Positions 29,769-37,120 of a DNA stretch of 47,808 bases are shown piece by piece (position 1 is the first letter of the stretch; each line of letters starts with the position of its first letter). The stretch is taken from contig QCVU01000002.1 of the NCBI GenBank assembly GCA_003210275.1, positions 1 through 47,808 on the forward strand, given 5' to 3'. The notes beneath the pieces were generated by a model. It was not told where the DNA came from. It searched no databases and saw only the letters and a list, made by a program, of their open reading frames with translations. This DNA comes from Prochlorococcus sp. AG-686-M10 (lineage in GTDB: Bacteria > Cyanobacteriota > Cyanobacteriia > PCC-6307 > Cyanobiaceae). A program made the position numbers and the translations under genes.

Positions 29769-29861
29769 TTTTACATATATTTGGCAAACTGATATTTTTT
29801 TAAATTATTTGCTTCTGTCAATATAAAATAAGTAAAAAAGCTAATGAAATAACTATTGCAA

Positions 29862-32618
29862 ATGAATGAGTCTAATGATGAACTTATATTAAATAATTAT
29901 TTGCCTTCACAGGTAGAACAAAAGTGGCAAAAACAATGGGATAGTTTAAGAGCATTTAGTCCTAATCCTAGTGATAAAGGGGATCCTTTTTGTATAGTTA
30001 TTCCGCCTCCAAATGTTACAGGGTCTTTGCATATGGGCCATGCCTTCAATACTGCATTAATAGACGTGATTATTCGTTTTCAAAGACTTCTTGGTAAAAA
30101 TGTTTTGTGTTTACCTGGCACTGACCATGCTTCAATAGCCGTTCAAACTATTCTTGAAAAACAATTAAAAACTGAGGGTAAAAATAGCGATGATATAGGA
30201 AGAGAAGAATTTTTAAAAAGAGCCTGGATTTGGAAAGAGCAAAGTGGGGGTAAGATAATATCCCAATTAAAGAGGATTGGGTATTCCGTTGATTGGGAAA
30301 GGGAACGATTTACTTTAGATGAAAAATTAAATGAAGCAGTTGTTGAAGCATTTAATATTTTACATGAGAAAAAACTTATTTATAGAGGTGAATATTTAGT
30401 TAATTGGTGCCCAGCATCCCAATCAGCAGTTAGTGATCTTGAAGTTGAAATGCAGGAGGTTAATGGATACTTATGGCATTTTAAATATCCACTAATTTCT
30501 GATCAGGGTCAAATCTTAGATGAATATTTAGAGGTCGCAACAACTCGACCTGAAACCTTATTGGGAGATACTGCTTTAGCTGTAAATCCAAATGATGAAA
30601 GATATAAAAAATATATTGATAAAAAAGTGAAAGTACCTTTTGTTGATAGAGAAATACCTATTATTTCTGATATACATGTTGATAAGGATTTTGGTACAGG
30701 TTGTGTAAAGGTTACGCCAGCTCATGATCCGAATGATTTTGCTATCGGGAAAAGGAATAATTTAAAGCAAATCAATATAATGAATAAAGATGGAACGCTT
30801 AATATTAATGCAGGCAAGTTTCAGGATTTAGACAGATTTGAAGCTAGAAAACAAATCATAAAGGAATTAGATACTTTAGGTTTATTAACTAAAATAGAAG
30901 ACTATAAAAATACAGTGCCTTTTTCTGATAGAGGAAAAGTGCCAATTGAGCCATTATTGTCAACCCAGTGGTTTTTGAAAATGGACAATATTTCTTCAAG
31001 TTGTCTAAAAGAACTTGATTCTAAGAAGCCTACCTTTATTCCTCAGCGTTGGGAGAAAGTTTATAAAGATTGGTTAGATAATATCAATGATTGGTGTGTT
31101 AGTAGACAATTATGGTGGGGACATCAAATCCCTGCATGGTATGTATTAAAACAATCAGAAGACTCAATAGATCAAAATACTCCATATGTTGTTGCCAGAA
31201 ATGAGGAAGAAGCATTAAGCAAAGCTTCTAAGGAATTTGGGTCTAATTTTCGACTTATTCGTGATAAAGATGTTTTAGATACTTGGTTTTCAAGTGGTTT
31301 ATGGCCTTTTTCTACATTGGGATGGCCTAATACCAATGATGCAGATTTTAAAAAATGGTATCCAAATAGTGTTTTAGTTACCGGTTTCGATATTATTTTC
31401 TTTTGGGTAGCCAGAATGACAATGATGGGGAAAACTTTTACGAATAATATTCCATTCAAAGATGTTTATATTCATGGTTTAGTTCGAGATGAAAATAATA
31501 AAAAAATGAGTAAAAGTTCAGGTAACGGAATTGATCCTTTGTTGTTGATTGATAAATATGGTTCTGATGCTTTGCGATTTGCTTTACTTCGTGAAGTCGC
31601 TGGTGCTGGGCAGGATATAAGGCTTGATTTTGATAGGAAAGAAAATACTTCTTCAACGGTTGAAGCATCAAGGAATTTTGCAAATAAACTTTGGAATGCT
31701 ACTAAATTTGTTTTAATAAATAAAACTTCTTCTGTAAATAATTCTTTAAGTGAAAGTGATGAAAAATATTTAGAATTATCTGATCAGTGGATTTTATCAA
31801 AATTAAATCAGTTGAATACAAAAGTATCTAATCTTTTACTTGAATATAAATTAGGGGAATCTGCAAAATTATTATATGAATTTGCATGGAATGACTTTTG
31901 TGATTGGTATGTTGAATTTGCAAAACAAAAATTTAATAATAAAGAATCCCACAACAGACAAATATCTGAAAAAATATTAATCAAAGTACTTACTGATGTG
32001 TTGGTTATGATGCATCCCTTTATGCCACATATCACTGAAGAGCTTTGGCATAAATTGCAAATAAAACCTGACCAAATTTTATTATCTCTGCAGAAATGGC
32101 CTTTATTAGAAAAAAAATATATAAATTCTCAAATAGATAAATCCTTTCAAGAGCTCTTTGAAATCATTAGATTGATTAGAAATATTAGAGTTGAGTTAGG
32201 ACTTAAGCCGTCTCAACTGGTTCCTGTATACTTAATTTCAGATAATGTTGAATTAACTAACTTTTTGAAAACTTTAATGGTTGATATTAAAACTTTTACT
32301 AAATCATCTGAAGTTTTTATTTGTAAATCTAGGGATATCGATAAAAATAATTTTGCTAAGTCTTTTTCTGGAATTATTGGTGATCTAGAAGTCTATTTAC
32401 CTTTTAATGATTTTGTAAATCTAGAAGCTTTAAAGGATAGACTTACTAGGGACCTGCAAAAAGTTAATTCTGATCTAGAAACGTTAAATAAGAGAATATC
32501 CAACAAAAACTTTATAGACAAAGCTCCTAAAGATATTGTTGAGGAATGTTTTGCCAAGTTGAAAGAAGGAAATTTGCAATCGGAAAGAATAAATAAAAAG
32601 CTTAAATTATTAAAATGA
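29862..32618 (+). CDS. valS: Valyl-tRNA synthetase
   Basis: Class I synthetase, about 918 residues. The HIGH-type motif is PPPNVTGSLHMGHAF near residues 48-62, and the KMSKS motif is ENNKKMSKSSGNGIDP near 546. The editing domain shows TTRPETLLGDTALAVNP. A C-terminal coiled-coil arm (LEALKDRLTRDLQKVNSDLETLNKRI) is present, as in bacterial ValRS. The track starts at a TTG (29856); the ATG two codons later is preferred. Its substrate tRNA-Val(UAC) is encoded just upstream, which is suggestive but not needed for function. Confidence 0.97.
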   Translation: MNESNDELILNNYLPSQVEQKWQKQWDSLRAFSPNPSDKGDPFCIVIPPPNVTGSLHMGHAFNTALIDVIIRFQRLLGKNVLCLPGTDHASIAVQTILEKQLKTEGKNSDDIGREEFLKRAWIWKEQSGGKIISQLKRIGYSVDWERERFTLDEKLNEAVVEAFNILHEKKLIYRGEYLVNWCPASQSAVSDLEVEMQEVNGYLWHFKYPLISDQGQILDEYLEVATTRPETLLGDTALAVNPNDERYKKYIDKKVKVPFVDREIPIISDIHVDKDFGTGCVKVTPAHDPNDFAIGKRNNLKQINIMNKDGTLNINAGKFQDLDRFEARKQIIKELDTLGLLTKIEDYKNTVPFSDRGKVPIEPLLSTQWFLKMDNISSSCLKELDSKKPTFIPQRWEKVYKDWLDNINDWCVSRQLWWGHQIPAWYVLKQSEDSIDQNTPYVVARNEEEALSKASKEFGSNFRLIRDKDVLDTWFSSGLWPFSTLGWPNTNDADFKKWYPNSVLVTGFDIIFFWVARMTMMGKTFTNNIPFKDVYIHGLVRDENNKKMSKSSGNGIDPLLLIDKYGSDALRFALLREVAGAGQDIRLDFDRKENTSSTVEASRNFANKLWNATKFVLINKTSSVNNSLSESDEKYLELSDQWILSKLNQLNTKVSNLLLEYKLGESAKLLYEFAWNDFCDWYVEFAKQKFNNKESHNRQISEKILIKVLTDVLVMMHPFMPHITEELWHKLQIKPDQILLSLQKWPLLEKKYINSQIDKSFQELFEIIRLIRNIRVELGLKPSQLVPVYLISDNVELTNFLKTLMVDIKTFTKSSEVFICKSRDIDKNNFAKSFSGIIGDLEVYLPFNDFVNLEALKDRLTRDLQKVNSDLETLNKRISNKNFIDKAPKDIVEECFAKLKEGNLQSERINKKLKLLK

Positions 32619-32619
32619 T

Positions 32620-33231
32620 ATGACTTCTTTTTTTGAAAATATCTATGAATTAGCCTTTTTTTTTAATACAAACATTGGGATTTTAGCTTTTATCCTTTTA
32701 TATATCTTAATTGTTTTATTAATTCTTCCTGCTTCTTGGTTATCTTTACTAGCTGGTTTTTTATATGGTTCTTATCTCGGTTCAATAATAGTTTTTTTTG
32801 CGGCAGCTATTGGAGCTTCAGTAGCATTTTTTATTTCAAAAAGTTTTTTATCAATAAAGCTTAAAAAAGTTATTAATCGTTTCCCAAGATTAAGTCTTAT
32901 GGAACAAGTTGTGCAGAAAGGTGGTCTCAAATTAATTCTTTTAGCACGACTATCTCCTATCTTTCCTTTTAGTATTCTTAATTATTTTTATGGGTTAAAT
33001 AATATTAAATTTAGAAATTTTGCTCTTGGTCTTTTAGGAATCATTCCTGGAACATTTCTGTATTGTTCTATAGGCAGCTTGGCAAAAAGTTTGCAGGACT
33101 TAAAAAATTTACAGCCAACAAATAATTTATTTATAACAATTATTAGTGTGGTTTCAACTTTGATGGTTGTTTATTTTTCAGCAAAGTACGCTAAAGAATA
33201 TATTAATGAATCAAAAGAAATTAATCTCTGA
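32620..33231 (+). CDS. DedA/TVP38 (VTT-domain) membrane protein
   Basis: A 203-residue protein with about five or six membrane helices. The central LPASWLSLLAGFLYGSYLGSIIVFFAAAIGASVAFFI stretch and the later LILLARLSPIFPFSILNYFYGL motif are the signature of the SNARE-associated/VTT domain found in TVP38, TMEM64 and DedA proteins, which are linked to lipid scrambling or small-molecule movement. The ATG is 1 bp past the valS stop codon, so it is almost certainly co-transcribed with valS. Its substrate is unknown. Its 3' end overlaps an unlisted minus-strand ORF by 11 bp. Confidence 0.85.
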   Translation: MTSFFENIYELAFFFNTNIGILAFILLYILIVLLILPASWLSLLAGFLYGSYLGSIIVFFAAAIGASVAFFISKSFLSIKLKKVINRFPRLSLMEQVVQKGGLKLILLARLSPIFPFSILNYFYGLNNIKFRNFALGLLGIIPGTFLYCSIGSLAKSLQDLKNLQPTNNLFITIISVVSTLMVVYFSAKYAKEYINESKEINL

Positions 33232-33500: not shown

Positions 33501-34832
33501 TTAGATTTTTTCACCTAGTTCGAAACCTCTAAAGCATTTGAATCTTGGGAACCTAAGGCTGAATGTTTCAGCATCTTGAGATTGAGTTCTTGCATCAGCT
33601 CTGATTTCTACCAATTGCCCGATTAGTTTATCTCTTCCTCTCCAATATTCTTCACGTTGAGAATCACTGAATCCACTACCGCAATTAAGACGATAATTAT
33701 ATTGATCATCTTTACCTTCAACCAAGATTGCTCCAAGTCTGCCTTCGTTTCGGCCTGTCCCTTCTTCTATTGCTACAACTTTTAAGGTGACTTCTACGAA
33801 TGGTTTTGCTTTTAACCAATTATGTGTTCTTTTGCATTCATACCAACCATGAGGATTTTTAATCATCACGCCTTCATATCCCCCCTCGACGGCTGATTTG
33901 TTAAGTTCTACAAATCTACTTTGTCCTTCAGGAGTATCTAAATCTACATTTTCCCAGTCAAGTGTTTGAACATGTTTTAAACGAGTTGCATTTTTTGCTA
34001 CCCAATCTTTTACCAACATACTTCTAGTAGTTTGATCTTTTTCCCATAAACCCTTCTTGAAATCTTTAATTGGACAAATATCAAATAAGTGTAAAACTGC
34101 ATCTTTGGATTGTTTGCCATCTTTTCTATGTACTTGCTTCATTAGGTCTTGAAAATTAGCACTCATTACTTCACCATCTAAGACTAAATCGTAGGGGGTA
34201 GGATGTTTCTCTAATACTTTTTCTATTTCTGTAATGATATGACCAAAGTTATTAAACTGTTTACCGTTTCGAGAAAACATTTCTACTTTATTTTTTCTAA
34301 TAATTGTTAATACTCTGACTCCGTCTAATTTAATCTCAATTTGTTTTTTGCCTATCATTTTCTTTTCATGGTTTGCACTGTCATGTGCAAGGGGACATGA
34401 GAAGATAGGTATCGTATATTTTGGAAATTTTTTTGCAACTTTGTTTATTGTTTTTTCAGAAACACCACAACGAAGATCTTTAATCAATACGCGTCTATAA
34501 AATCCGTTCCATTGTTCTTTAGTTGCAGATTTCATAACTAAATTGATCGCATCTCTAGCAGCATGCCCAGTAAGTTCTCTTTTGATTAATTGATTTGTTA
34601 ATTCTTTAAAAATACTCCATTTACATCCTTGACTAGATGTCTCTTCTTCTTTTTCAGGTACCTGCTTTACTCCAAAAGTTACTAAAGGATCTAAGGCCAT
34701 ACTTATTCCCTCAAAAAAATGATCAAACCCTTGTTCCATTGCTTCAAAAATGATTTTTTCTTTATCTAATCTGCTTGGGTGTAATTCTAATTTTTTTATT
34801 ATTTCTTCTTTCCGAAGTTCTTCATGTTTCAC
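33501..34832 (-). CDS. ATP-dependent DNA ligase, T4-like
   Basis: A 443-residue nucleotidyltransferase ligase. Motif I is EIKLDG with the adenylated lysine K168, motif III is LDGEV (218-222), motif IV is EGVMIK (320-325) and motif V is WLKAK (339-343). A C-terminal OB-fold domain follows. An N-terminal helical DNA-binding domain of about 150 residues (HAARDAINLVM; FYRRVLIKDLRCGVSEKTINK) is present, as in T4 gp30 and larger ATP ligases. Bacteria normally replicate with NAD-dependent LigA, so this is an additional ligase, probably for repair. The start is GTG. It follows the membrane-anchored protein gene by 16 bp on the same strand. Phage descent is inferred from similarity, not shown. Confidence 0.92.
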   Translation of the reverse strand: MKHEELRKEEIIKKLELHPSRLDKEKIIFEAMEQGFDHFFEGISMALDPLVTFGVKQVPEKEEETSSQGCKWSIFKELTNQLIKRELTGHAARDAINLVMKSATKEQWNGFYRRVLIKDLRCGVSEKTINKVAKKFPKYTIPIFSCPLAHDSANHEKKMIGKKQIEIKLDGVRVLTIIRKNKVEMFSRNGKQFNNFGHIITEIEKVLEKHPTPYDLVLDGEVMSANFQDLMKQVHRKDGKQSKDAVLHLFDICPIKDFKKGLWEKDQTTRSMLVKDWVAKNATRLKHVQTLDWENVDLDTPEGQSRFVELNKSAVEGGYEGVMIKNPHGWYECKRTHNWLKAKPFVEVTLKVVAIEEGTGRNEGRLGAILVEGKDDQYNYRLNCGSGFSDSQREEYWRGRDKLIGQLVEIRADARTQSQDAETFSLRFPRFKCFRGFELGEKI

Positions 34833-34848
34833 AAATTTTGAACCTTTA

Positions 34849-35268
34849 CTAATTTACTTTAGCTATTCTGTCTATCTTCCAATCTTTATCACTTTTTGAA
34901 AAAGTAAAATCTAGGGGAAGTTCATCTTTCTTATCTTCAGATTTTAAATTTAAAGTAATTATGATTTGATCTTCTTGAACTCTTGGTCTTCCTGACTTTA
35001 AATTTCTATACTTATTTAAATTTAAGCCAGCTAAAAATTTTAGAAAGTCCTGACGTTTTACATGTGTTTTGTAAGTTTTAGTAGTTAGTCCATATGCAGC
35101 ATCAATTCTGCCCGCTGCTACTTGATCAAAAAATTTCCGTACCAACGGATTAATTCCTCTAGCGCTTATAACAAGTTTAACAGCATTGAAGGTCCAAAAA
35201 GAAACAAGCACTGCTCCACCAACCAATAAAGCTTTAACCCCAATATCTTTTACTAGTAATGCATCCAT
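34849..35268 (-). CDS. Membrane-anchored small protein, possibly NTF2-like
   Basis: A 139-residue protein of unknown function. One hydrophobic helix (about residues 11-33, VKALLVGGAVLVSFWTFNAVKLV) is followed by a soluble domain beginning PLVRKFFDQVAAGRIDAAYGLTT, with alternating strands up to DKDWKIDRIAKVN. That pattern, a helix pair then a beta sheet ending in a W-K-I-x-R strand, resembles small NTF2-like or DUF4864-like domains; this is shape matching by eye only. It is the first gene of a two-gene minus-strand unit with the ATP ligase and is divergent from the SprT-like gene across 85 bp. Confidence 0.7.
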   Translation of the reverse strand: MDALLVKDIGVKALLVGGAVLVSFWTFNAVKLVISARGINPLVRKFFDQVAAGRIDAAYGLTTKTYKTHVKRQDFLKFLAGLNLNKYRNLKSGRPRVQEDQIIITLNLKSEDKKDELPLDFTFSKSDKDWKIDRIAKVN

Positions 35269-35353
35269 TTTGTAATTAGTTTCTTTTAATTTTAAGAAAA
35301 TAAATCGTTTTTGATGACTTTTTTTGTCAAAATAATACTAAATTTAATCGATA
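35269..35353. promoter_or_regulatory. Divergent promoter region, ligase unit / SprT-like gene
   Basis: 85 bp that must serve both the anchored-protein/ligase unit (minus) and the SprT-like gene (plus). It contains TGAC-T7-GTCA (35315-35329), a short inverted repeat around a T run. No LexA-type or NtcA-type box was recognised. No confident -35/-10 pair was assigned. Confidence 0.35.
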
Positions 35354-35884
35354 ATGTCTTTAATTCCTCTTTTACCAGTATTTCATAAGTTTAATAGGCA
35401 ATTTTTTGATCAATCTTTAACAACTACTAATAGAGAACCTTTAGTAAAGGTTAGATGGAGCGATAATAGATTAAAGACAACTGCAGGTTTTTATAAGCGC
35501 AAACAACTTAAAGGAGTAATTGATTCAGAAATAATTTTGTCAAAGCCAATTTTAACTAAATTATCTTGTAACGAAATTTATAGTACCTTATGTCATGAAA
35601 TGATTCATGCATGGGTAGATAGGATTCTGAATATTAATGAGATACATGGGCCAAATTTTTTGAGTAAAATGAATGAAATTAATAAAGAAGAGAATAATTT
35701 TCAGATAAGTATTAGACATAATTTTCCGGTTGAAAGAAAGGCATTAAAATATATCGGTAAATGTTTAAATTGCGGGGAGAAATATATGTATAGAAAAAGA
35801 ATTAGAAATATTGCTTGTAAAAAATGTTGTAATTTGTTCTTTAATGGATCCTGGAATAAAAAATGTTTAATTTTGTTTGATTGA
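35354..35884 (+). CDS. SprT-like zinc metalloprotease domain protein
   Basis: A 176-residue protein. The catalytic zinc site HEMIHAW (residues 81-87, HExxH) is followed by H98 as a likely third ligand (EIHGPNF). The C-terminal zinc ribbon is CLNC-x14-CKKC (C137, C140, C155, C158). This is the SprT/Spartan layout; eukaryotic Spartan cuts DNA-protein crosslinks, while bacterial SprT-like proteins are little studied. The early residues FNRQFFDQSLTTTNREPLVKVRWS fit the family N-terminus. It is divergent from an ATP-dependent DNA ligase unit, which makes a DNA-repair role attractive but unproven. Confidence 0.85.
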   Translation: MSLIPLLPVFHKFNRQFFDQSLTTTNREPLVKVRWSDNRLKTTAGFYKRKQLKGVIDSEIILSKPILTKLSCNEIYSTLCHEMIHAWVDRILNINEIHGPNFLSKMNEINKEENNFQISIRHNFPVERKALKYIGKCLNCGEKYMYRKRIRNIACKKCCNLFFNGSWNKKCLILFD

Positions 35885-35968: not shown

Positions 35969-36535
35969 ATGGATTCTCGTAGACCTAGAAACTTTAGAAA
36001 TAATTTTGACAGAACAGTACTTGATAAACAAGTTGACAAAATTTTTGAAACAGGTAGACAATTTGTTGATGGTGTATCAGGTTCTAGACCCGGAAAAAAA
36101 AGAAATACTGATTTTCAAGGAATATCTCGCAGGAATGTTAAAAATGTCGGAAGATGGGTCTCAGATAAAATGGATATGTTTTTTGAAGAAGAAGATGATT
36201 GGTCTGATCAGGAAAATAGTAATGAATCGATACAAGATATGAAATCTTTTTCAAGAGAATCTAAATTTATTGATGAAGAGAAACCATCATCTAAGCGTCC
36301 TTTAGAGGCATTATCTTTAAGGCAACCTAAAAGTCTCCACATAGATGAACAAAAGAAGTTACCTTATGGAACATCAAACTCTTTTGATGAATGGCCGGAT
36401 GATTCAGATTTAAAAGTTGATAGATGGCAAAGATCTTATGAAAGAGGTAATGAGGTTAATGTAAATCAAGATAATCCAAAAAGCGTTTCAAATAGTGGAA
36501 GAAGTATTCCAAGGTCAAGAAGAAGAAGAATATAG
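35969..36535 (+). CDS. Hypothetical low-complexity protein
   Basis: A 188-residue protein that I cannot assign to a family. It begins with a basic R/N-rich stretch (SRRPRNFRNNFDRTVLDKQ), has one more ordered-looking part (QVDKIFETGRQFVDGVSGSRPGKKR, then KNVGRWVSDKMDMFF), turns acidic (EEEDDWSDQEN), and ends in RSRRRRI. Most of it looks disordered. Nucleic-acid or ribosome binding is conceivable from the basic ends but is not supported otherwise. Its last 21 bp overlap the 3' end of the convergent chorismate lyase gene. The overlapping 35943-36242 track ORF in another frame is a shadow. Confidence 0.65.
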   Translation: MDSRRPRNFRNNFDRTVLDKQVDKIFETGRQFVDGVSGSRPGKKRNTDFQGISRRNVKNVGRWVSDKMDMFFEEEDDWSDQENSNESIQDMKSFSRESKFIDEEKPSSKRPLEALSLRQPKSLHIDEQKKLPYGTSNSFDEWPDDSDLKVDRWQRSYERGNEVNVNQDNPKSVSNSGRSIPRSRRRRI

Positions 36536-37120
36536 ATTAGAAAAACTTTGAATTCCTGATGGACCTAACCAAGTTTCTAATAAAGGATTGAAGACTTCGC
36601 GAATAATAGTTAGAGGTTTTTTATTACGAAAAAATCTGTAATTTCTTGACCAAAAAGGTCCTTTTACGCAAAATTCCTCCTCTAACCAATTTGAATTAAC
36701 TATTGAAATGCTATCCACTTCTCTAAATAATTCTGATCTATCTTGAGTTAAGTTTTTCCATATTGGTTCTTCTTTTGCTTTTAAATTTTGACTGACTTGT
36801 TCTGAATTCCACCAACTTTCAGCCCAGGCAAGATTTTTGTTTTGATTTCTAATCCAAACTTGTCTTCTAATTAAAGGTTCTTTTAATTGATTGATTTCTC
36901 TTGGGCCTTCTTTATTAAATAAAGGATCTATCTGCATAGTTATTAATTTGATTTTTGTTTCGTGATTAGTTAAAAGCTGTAAATGTCTTGTTGGACTACC
37001 ATCTCCTAGTAACATTAATTTCCATGCTCCAGATATTTTAGGTAAAGAATTTGCAAGTAAAAAAGCAGTGGCTTTCTCTTCCCATAAAATTCTTGGTGAG
37101 TTGAAGAGTTTATTATTCAG
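36515..37120 (-). CDS. Chorismate lyase (DUF98/Ycf21 family), start codon uncertain
   Basis: Splits chorismate into 4-hydroxybenzoate and pyruvate, the entry to plastoquinone in cyanobacteria. The hallmark MLLGDGSPTRHLQLLT and the C-terminal REVFNPLLETWLG are clear. The track starts at the ATG 37015, but that ATG sits inside the conserved strand. The same frame runs 38 more codons upstream to a TAG at 37130-37132, encoding ILWEEKATAFLLANSLPKIS, a sensible N-terminus for the family. There is no ATG, GTG or TTG in that stretch; a CTG at 37118-37120, preceded by AGG about 8 nt away, is my best guess (201 aa). It begins about 18 bp after mnmG. Confidence 0.75.
   Translation of the reverse strand: MNNKLFNSPRILWEEKATAFLLANSLPKISGAWKLMLLGDGSPTRHLQLLTNHETKIKLITMQIDPLFNKEGPREINQLKEPLIRRQVWIRNQNKNLAWAESWWNSEQVSQNLKAKEEPIWKNLTQDRSELFREVDSISIVNSNWLEEEFCVKGPFWSRNYRFFRNKKPLTIIREVFNPLLETWLGPSGIQSFSNLYSSSS

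Follow-up and report, generated by a model that had tools for sequence, protein, structure and literature searches.

Why does an ATP-dependent DNA ligase stand beside a SprT-like metalloprotease in Prochlorococcus? According to a 2016 review, genes for NAD+-dependent ligases occur in all bacteria and are essential, and the ATP-dependent ligases of bacteria appear to be non-replicative (PMC5052709). In the window analysed here, the whole stretch of 47,808 nucleotides from contig C2 of the Prochlorococcus genome G000 (66% complete), the protease gene is divergent from a two-gene unit in which a gene that we call MID is followed, after 16 bp, by the ligase gene (Table 1). An earlier note on this DNA had read this arrangement as a possible, undescribed repair unit. 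In the flank, the convergent genes for ORF188 and chorismate lyase overlap at their 3′ ends (36515-36535).

Table 1. Features of the ligase locus, with positions in the window
Feature	Position	Strand	Details
Valyl-tRNA synthetase (ValS), conserved flank	29856..32618	+	
VTT-domain membrane protein, conserved to the right of the slot	32620..33231	+	
Convergent gap between ligase and VTT stop codons	33232..33500	.	269 bp
ATP-dependent DNA ligase, Pmar-Lig ortholog	33501..34832	-	443 aa, GTG start; PF01068/PF14743, PDB 6rau/6ras/6rar
MID, first gene of the two-gene unit	34849..35268	-	139 aa; N-terminal membrane helix and small alpha/beta domain, possibly of NTF2/MecA_N-like shape
Divergent intergenic region between SprT and MID	35269..35353	.	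exactly 85 bp
SprT-like (Spartan-family) zinc metalloprotease, C-terminal zinc ribbon	35354..35884	+	176 aa
ORF188, family-wide conserved SprT neighbour, no known domain	35969..36535	+	
Chorismate lyase, conserved flank	36515..37015	-	

The proteins of the locus

The ligase matches PF01068 (2e-21) and PF14743 (4e-11) in profile searches, contains the motif I lysine (IKLDG, within QIEIKLDGVRV) and matches Pmar-Lig over its full length (802 bits, E 1e-240). Its residues 3-443 align to PDB 6rau/6ras/6rar with all three domains covered, and it is the ortholog of the crystallised Pmar-Lig (PDB 6RAU/6RAS/6RAR). A new enzyme was thus ruled out, as the protein has already been crystallised, and so was Lig E, the minimal bacterial ATP-dependent ligase that has no N-terminal DNA-binding domain, given a length of 443 aa and an aligned Pmar-Lig N-terminal domain. 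The likeness to the published enzyme (PDB 6RAR/6RAS/6RAU/6RCE; NAR 2019, PMC6698739) extends over the T4-like DNA-binding, adenylation and OB domains. Pmar-Lig was reported to seal nicks in vitro at a level comparable to T4 ligase and to join double-strand breaks poorly; it has a T4 phage-type DNA-binding domain at its N-terminus and lacks a T4-type sliding-clamp loop (PMC6698739). The equivalent in MED4 is annotated as 'ligB' (PMM1679), for which a search for expression data returned a sole entry, as a predicted sRNA target of Yfr28.

The earlier note had described the divergent gene as encoding a Spartan-type metalloprotease with a HEMIH motif and a zinc ribbon, and this held up. The protein matches the SprT-like family PF10263 (1.4e-23) and human Spartan (E 1e-8), and its zinc site (H81, E82 and H85 of HEMIH and a third histidine, H98) and ribbon cysteines (C137, C140, C155 and C158) are invariant in 11 sequences. 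With the Spartan/SprT metalloproteases (human SPRTN, PDB 6MDW/6MDX) it has in common an HExxH...H zinc site and the region of the SprT fold. Spartan proteins elsewhere remove DNA-protein crosslinks, and such a function is putative for the cyanobacterial protein. The two-gene unit with an ATP-dependent ligase, the 85-bp divergent gap and the membrane anchor of the middle protein, formed by an N-terminal helix of MID (residues 3-35), were likewise recognized correctly. The remainder of MID may resemble NTF2-like/MecA_N domains, at low confidence: the match to PF05223 reaches 17.3 bits, below the cutoff of 22, and Foldseek gives an E of about 1e-3 to NTF2/MecA_N-type domains on a model of pLDDT 67. 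MID is ~94% identical between the two HL sub-clades described below, and SprT diverges faster (~77%).

An ATP-dependent ligase in the position of ligA

Comparison of 20 loci (17 from genomes of other genera and three from genomes of the same genus) revealed a conserved Cyanobiaceae block of MnmG, chorismate lyase, ORF188, the divergent pair SprT and MID, a gene X, VTT and ValS. In the other genera, X is a ~2.1-kb gene for a full NAD+-dependent LigA, for example one of 688 aa at L096:5051-7117 that scores 839 bits against the NF005932 cutoff of 369. LigA also occupies X in a sister lineage within the genus Prochlorococcus, and in HLI/HLII-type Prochlorococcus X is Pmar-Lig. In all 92 genomes with both features listed, LigA lies directly behind MID on the same strand, with 965-1141 bp between MID and the LigA OB domain. 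The order SprT-MID-LigA is intact in 17/17 other-genus loci, also in those of which VTT, ValS or chorismate lyase is no longer a neighbour. MID and the ligase are adjacent in the named Prochlorococcus loci that were compared, and SprT is divergent beside MID wherever the contig extends that far; the arrangement of the three genes is far beyond chance. A conserved stretch around TTTATTTTGACA...AACGATTTATTTTCTTAAA lies in the 85-bp divergent region of genomes with either ligase. Outside the Cyanobiaceae, MID-like genes do not adjoin SprT or ligA.

Among 251 Cyanobiaceae genomes from 59 genera, MID is present in 233 (55 genera) and SprT in 232 (54 genera), whereas Pmar-Lig is present in 16/16 genomes of the same genus and in 0/235 of other genera. 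Because MID and SprT are family-wide and the ligase is confined to its own genus, the SprT and MID pair is ancient across the Cyanobiaceae and the ligase a newcomer. Pmar-Lig shares with the replicative LigA (TIGR00575) the chromosomal slot, the upstream gene, the unit and presumably the nick-sealing role, but it differs in cofactor, domain set and origin and is a non-orthologous protein.

The LigA OB domain (PF03120) was absent from all 16 genomes of the genus in this family sample, single-contig ones included, and present in 151/152 genomes of other genera that are at least 90% complete. In 244 genomes of Cyanobacteriota it was missing from 10, all of the same genus. A full-length LigA query against seven single-contig genomes and MIT 9201 retrieved only fragments of 249-263 aa with at most 34 bits, compared with 711-1509 bits for the controls. 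A LigA elsewhere in the genome was considered and was not found by PF01653, PF03120 or full-length LigA searches, and no LigA remnant was detected in the 269-bp gap behind the ligase or elsewhere in the window.

Within 151 genomes of the genus, Pmar-Lig is present in 119, including 48 of the 51 that are at least 90% complete; six others have a full LigA in the same slot without Pmar-Lig, and none has both. A third state, with neither ligase, was considered and set aside for 16 of the genomes concerned, which also lack MID, placing the locus in an assembly gap. In a species tree built from ValS, MnmG and DnaB, the Pmar-Lig genomes form one clade (support 100/100) that excludes the LigA-bearing Prochlorococcus lineage (clade support 88/85). 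The two Pmar-Lig sub-clades we take to be HLI and HLII, from their named members and general knowledge. Because of the full support for the Pmar-Lig clade and the position of the LigA-bearing lineage outside it, a single swap in the line leading to the HLI/HLII-type ancestor suffices to explain the distribution. With a G+C content of 33.9%, the ligase gene resembles other conserved genes of this stretch, which suggests that the swap was not recent. The same slot, the mutual exclusion and the ancestral state in the sister lineage are those of an in-place non-orthologous displacement.

Pmar-Lig has been described as coexisting with, and additional to, a replicative NAD-dependent enzyme (PMC6698739), whereas here it stands in the ligA slot of genomes without LigA; the published statement could be true of the species as named, but it is not true of the genomes tested here. 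A comparable displacement, in which a phage- or bacterial-type ATP-dependent ligase took the place of a non-orthologous NAD-dependent one, is known from nucleo-cytoplasmic large DNA viruses (PMC2806865). Those are eukaryotic viruses, whereas the present case concerns a free-living bacterium, an exchange in place and a gene reported to be universal and essential (PMC5052709). In the literature searched, with subscription papers outside the search, we found no report of a loss of LigA in HL Prochlorococcus, and the novelty of its loss and replacement is therefore provisional. The ligase itself is already known; the novelty appears to lie in what its position reveals.

Phage relatives and direction of transfer

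The nearest relatives of Pmar-Lig outside the genus are ligases of marine phages. No close ligase was found in phage isolates among 50,697 phage records, the best isolate match being 37%. A scan of IMG/VR yielded 434 encoding matches, of which the best 80 are 68-77% identical to Pmar-Lig. These ligase genes are flanked by genes for a head maturation protease, tail fibres and other phage functions, and the idea that the contigs are mis-binned host DNA was rejected, as Prochlorococcus neighbours occur in 0 of the best 80. A recurring neighbour gene is 64-67% identical to a gene of the Prochlorococcus phages P-SSM2, P-SSM5 and P-SSM7; the other neighbour genes examined gave no clear host. The phages that encode such ligases (IMG/VR contigs L310, L337, L342, L344 and L356) also have genes for a UvdE-type UV endonuclease, a redoxin, a Cu/Zn superoxide dismutase, hemE and QueC/QueD-like proteins.

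The best ligase tree, for which the outgroups were too distant for rooting, nests the HL clade among the phage ligases (96/86 with L125), but a sister relationship to monophyletic phage ligases is also compatible with an AU test (p 0.44). A transfer from phage to host is therefore likely rather than proven. The opposite reading concerns the origin only: phages would have taken the ligase from Prochlorococcus, and the cell would have obtained it from another, unsampled source. The AU result leaves room for such a capture, which we nevertheless consider rather unlikely, given that the phage ligases are diverse and numerous, that the HL clade is nested among them in the best tree, that the enzyme has a T4 phage-type DNA-binding domain at its N-terminus (PMC6698739) and that it occurs in no other genus of the Cyanobiaceae.

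Role of the ligase and alternative explanations

Replication requires a nick-sealing ligase. Pmar-Lig is present in all 19 near-complete HL genomes, 17 of which also encode a 546-aa ATP-dependent ligase of the cisplatin-response type; the remaining two (G017 and G220, each with a completeness rating of 100%) yielded no complete DNA ligase other than Pmar-Lig. The need for such an enzyme makes Pmar-Lig the strongest candidate for the replicative ligase, and its T4-like nick sealing, poor joining of double-strand breaks and missing clamp loop (PMC6698739) fit the proposed role. In the low-light genera sampled, no PF01068 proteins were found, and LigA is the only ligase.

The most coherent account of these data, and in our judgement very probably the correct one, is that ligA was replaced in place by a phage-type ATP-dependent ligase that took over nick sealing. 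The common ancestor of the HLI/HLII-type strains would have carried ligA as the gene after MID, in a small unit transcribed divergently from sprT. This ligA would then have been exchanged for an ATP-dependent ligase of the type now found in marine phages, presumably by homologous exchange in the flanks, in a swap that left the surrounding genes, the place in the operon and the promoter region between the divergent genes intact. Pmar-Lig would have taken over nick sealing, including the joining of Okazaki fragments, and LigA-free replication is probable. The fuller statement, that a free-living, globally dominant lineage without LigA replicates its chromosome with a phage-derived ATP-dependent ligase after one swap into the ligA slot, we regard as somewhat favoured by the evidence. 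If it is true, HLI/HLII Prochlorococcus would be a natural and abundant exception to the universality of LigA, the cofactor of the replicative ligase would shift from NAD+ to ATP, and resistance to LigA inhibitors would be predicted for HL but not LL cells. It would also provide a phylogenetically placed case in which a phage-type enzyme took over the very slot of a core replication enzyme. The position in the slot suggests, moreover, what Pmar-Lig is for.

Two other proteins bear on this account, since the 546-aa ligase could share the work and ~250-aa LigA-type proteins might retain some activity. In one alternative, the 546-aa enzyme, which is also encoded in the genome studied here (L124:618-2255, G000:C6), would be the HL replicative ligase, with Pmar-Lig a repair enzyme standing in the ligA slot by chance. 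Its wide occurrence speaks for this idea, but it was not found in G017 and G220, Pmar-Lig is the ligase present throughout, and relatives of the 546-aa family are named as damage-response ligases; we consider this highly improbable. It is even harder to credit that the ~250-aa proteins, together with a partner, perform the replicative NAD+-dependent sealing as a reduced LigA. Their adenylation motifs, including the motif I KIDG, look intact and most HL genomes have one or more copies, but they score 73-83 bits against the LigA equivalog cutoff of 444, they contain no OB, zinc, HhH or BRCT parts, and searches of these genomes detect no OB domain. A fragment is also present in the LigA-bearing genome G324, so the fragments are not the replacement of LigA.

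A dedicated repair module along the lines of the earlier note, in which DNA-protein crosslinks would be degraded by SprT, with MID as an anchor for the complex, before the ligase seals the DNA, is improbable. Across the family, no part of the neighbourhood is more stable than SprT-MID-ligase, and conservation extends to the divergent region, but all other genera have the housekeeping LigA in this place, Pmar-Lig is limited to one genus, and MID-like genes outside the family have neither neighbour. The expectation that the three genes stay together was correct for SprT, MID and a DNA ligase behind MID; the ATP-dependent ligase, in turn, is not an orthologous fixed partner. The neighbourhood is therefore stable, but its ligase, already crystallised, is better explained otherwise: because it occurs only in its own genus and in the slot of the missing replicative LigA, its presence is best explained as the replacement of the housekeeping replicative ligase. 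Since the genes stay neighbours and the divergent region was conserved through the ligase swap, SprT and MID may have some connection with ligation, though with low probability.

Earlier listings of Prochlorococcus ligases can be compared with these data. 'Several DNA ligases' have been mentioned for MED4 (PMC2921402), and an ATP-dependent ligase has been listed as lost early in Prochlorococcus (PMC3940434); the 546-aa ligase in HL genomes may have been retained or regained. Ligases similar to the 546-aa type were seen in some other genera (G246 and G112).

The ~250-aa proteins are easily mistaken for LigA in annotation and gene-list surveys. A PF01653 search of the 151 genus genomes gave many matches, only six of which are full LigA (690-698 aa, ~305-317 bits). 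The others, where read, are ~250-aa stand-alone adenylation-domain proteins, for example L113:553-1308 (G000), L115:729-1478 (G245), L116:714-1463 (G152) and L117:854-1609 (G270), and PF01653 matches were accordingly rejected as proof of LigA. Judging from their lengths, the two short 'DNA ligase' genes listed in NATL2A (PMC6102989) are probably such fragments. The two strands of L114 (G000:C25) carry a truncated LigA-type fragment and a GyrB-like reading frame, respectively, possibly as the result of a chimeric single-cell assembly.
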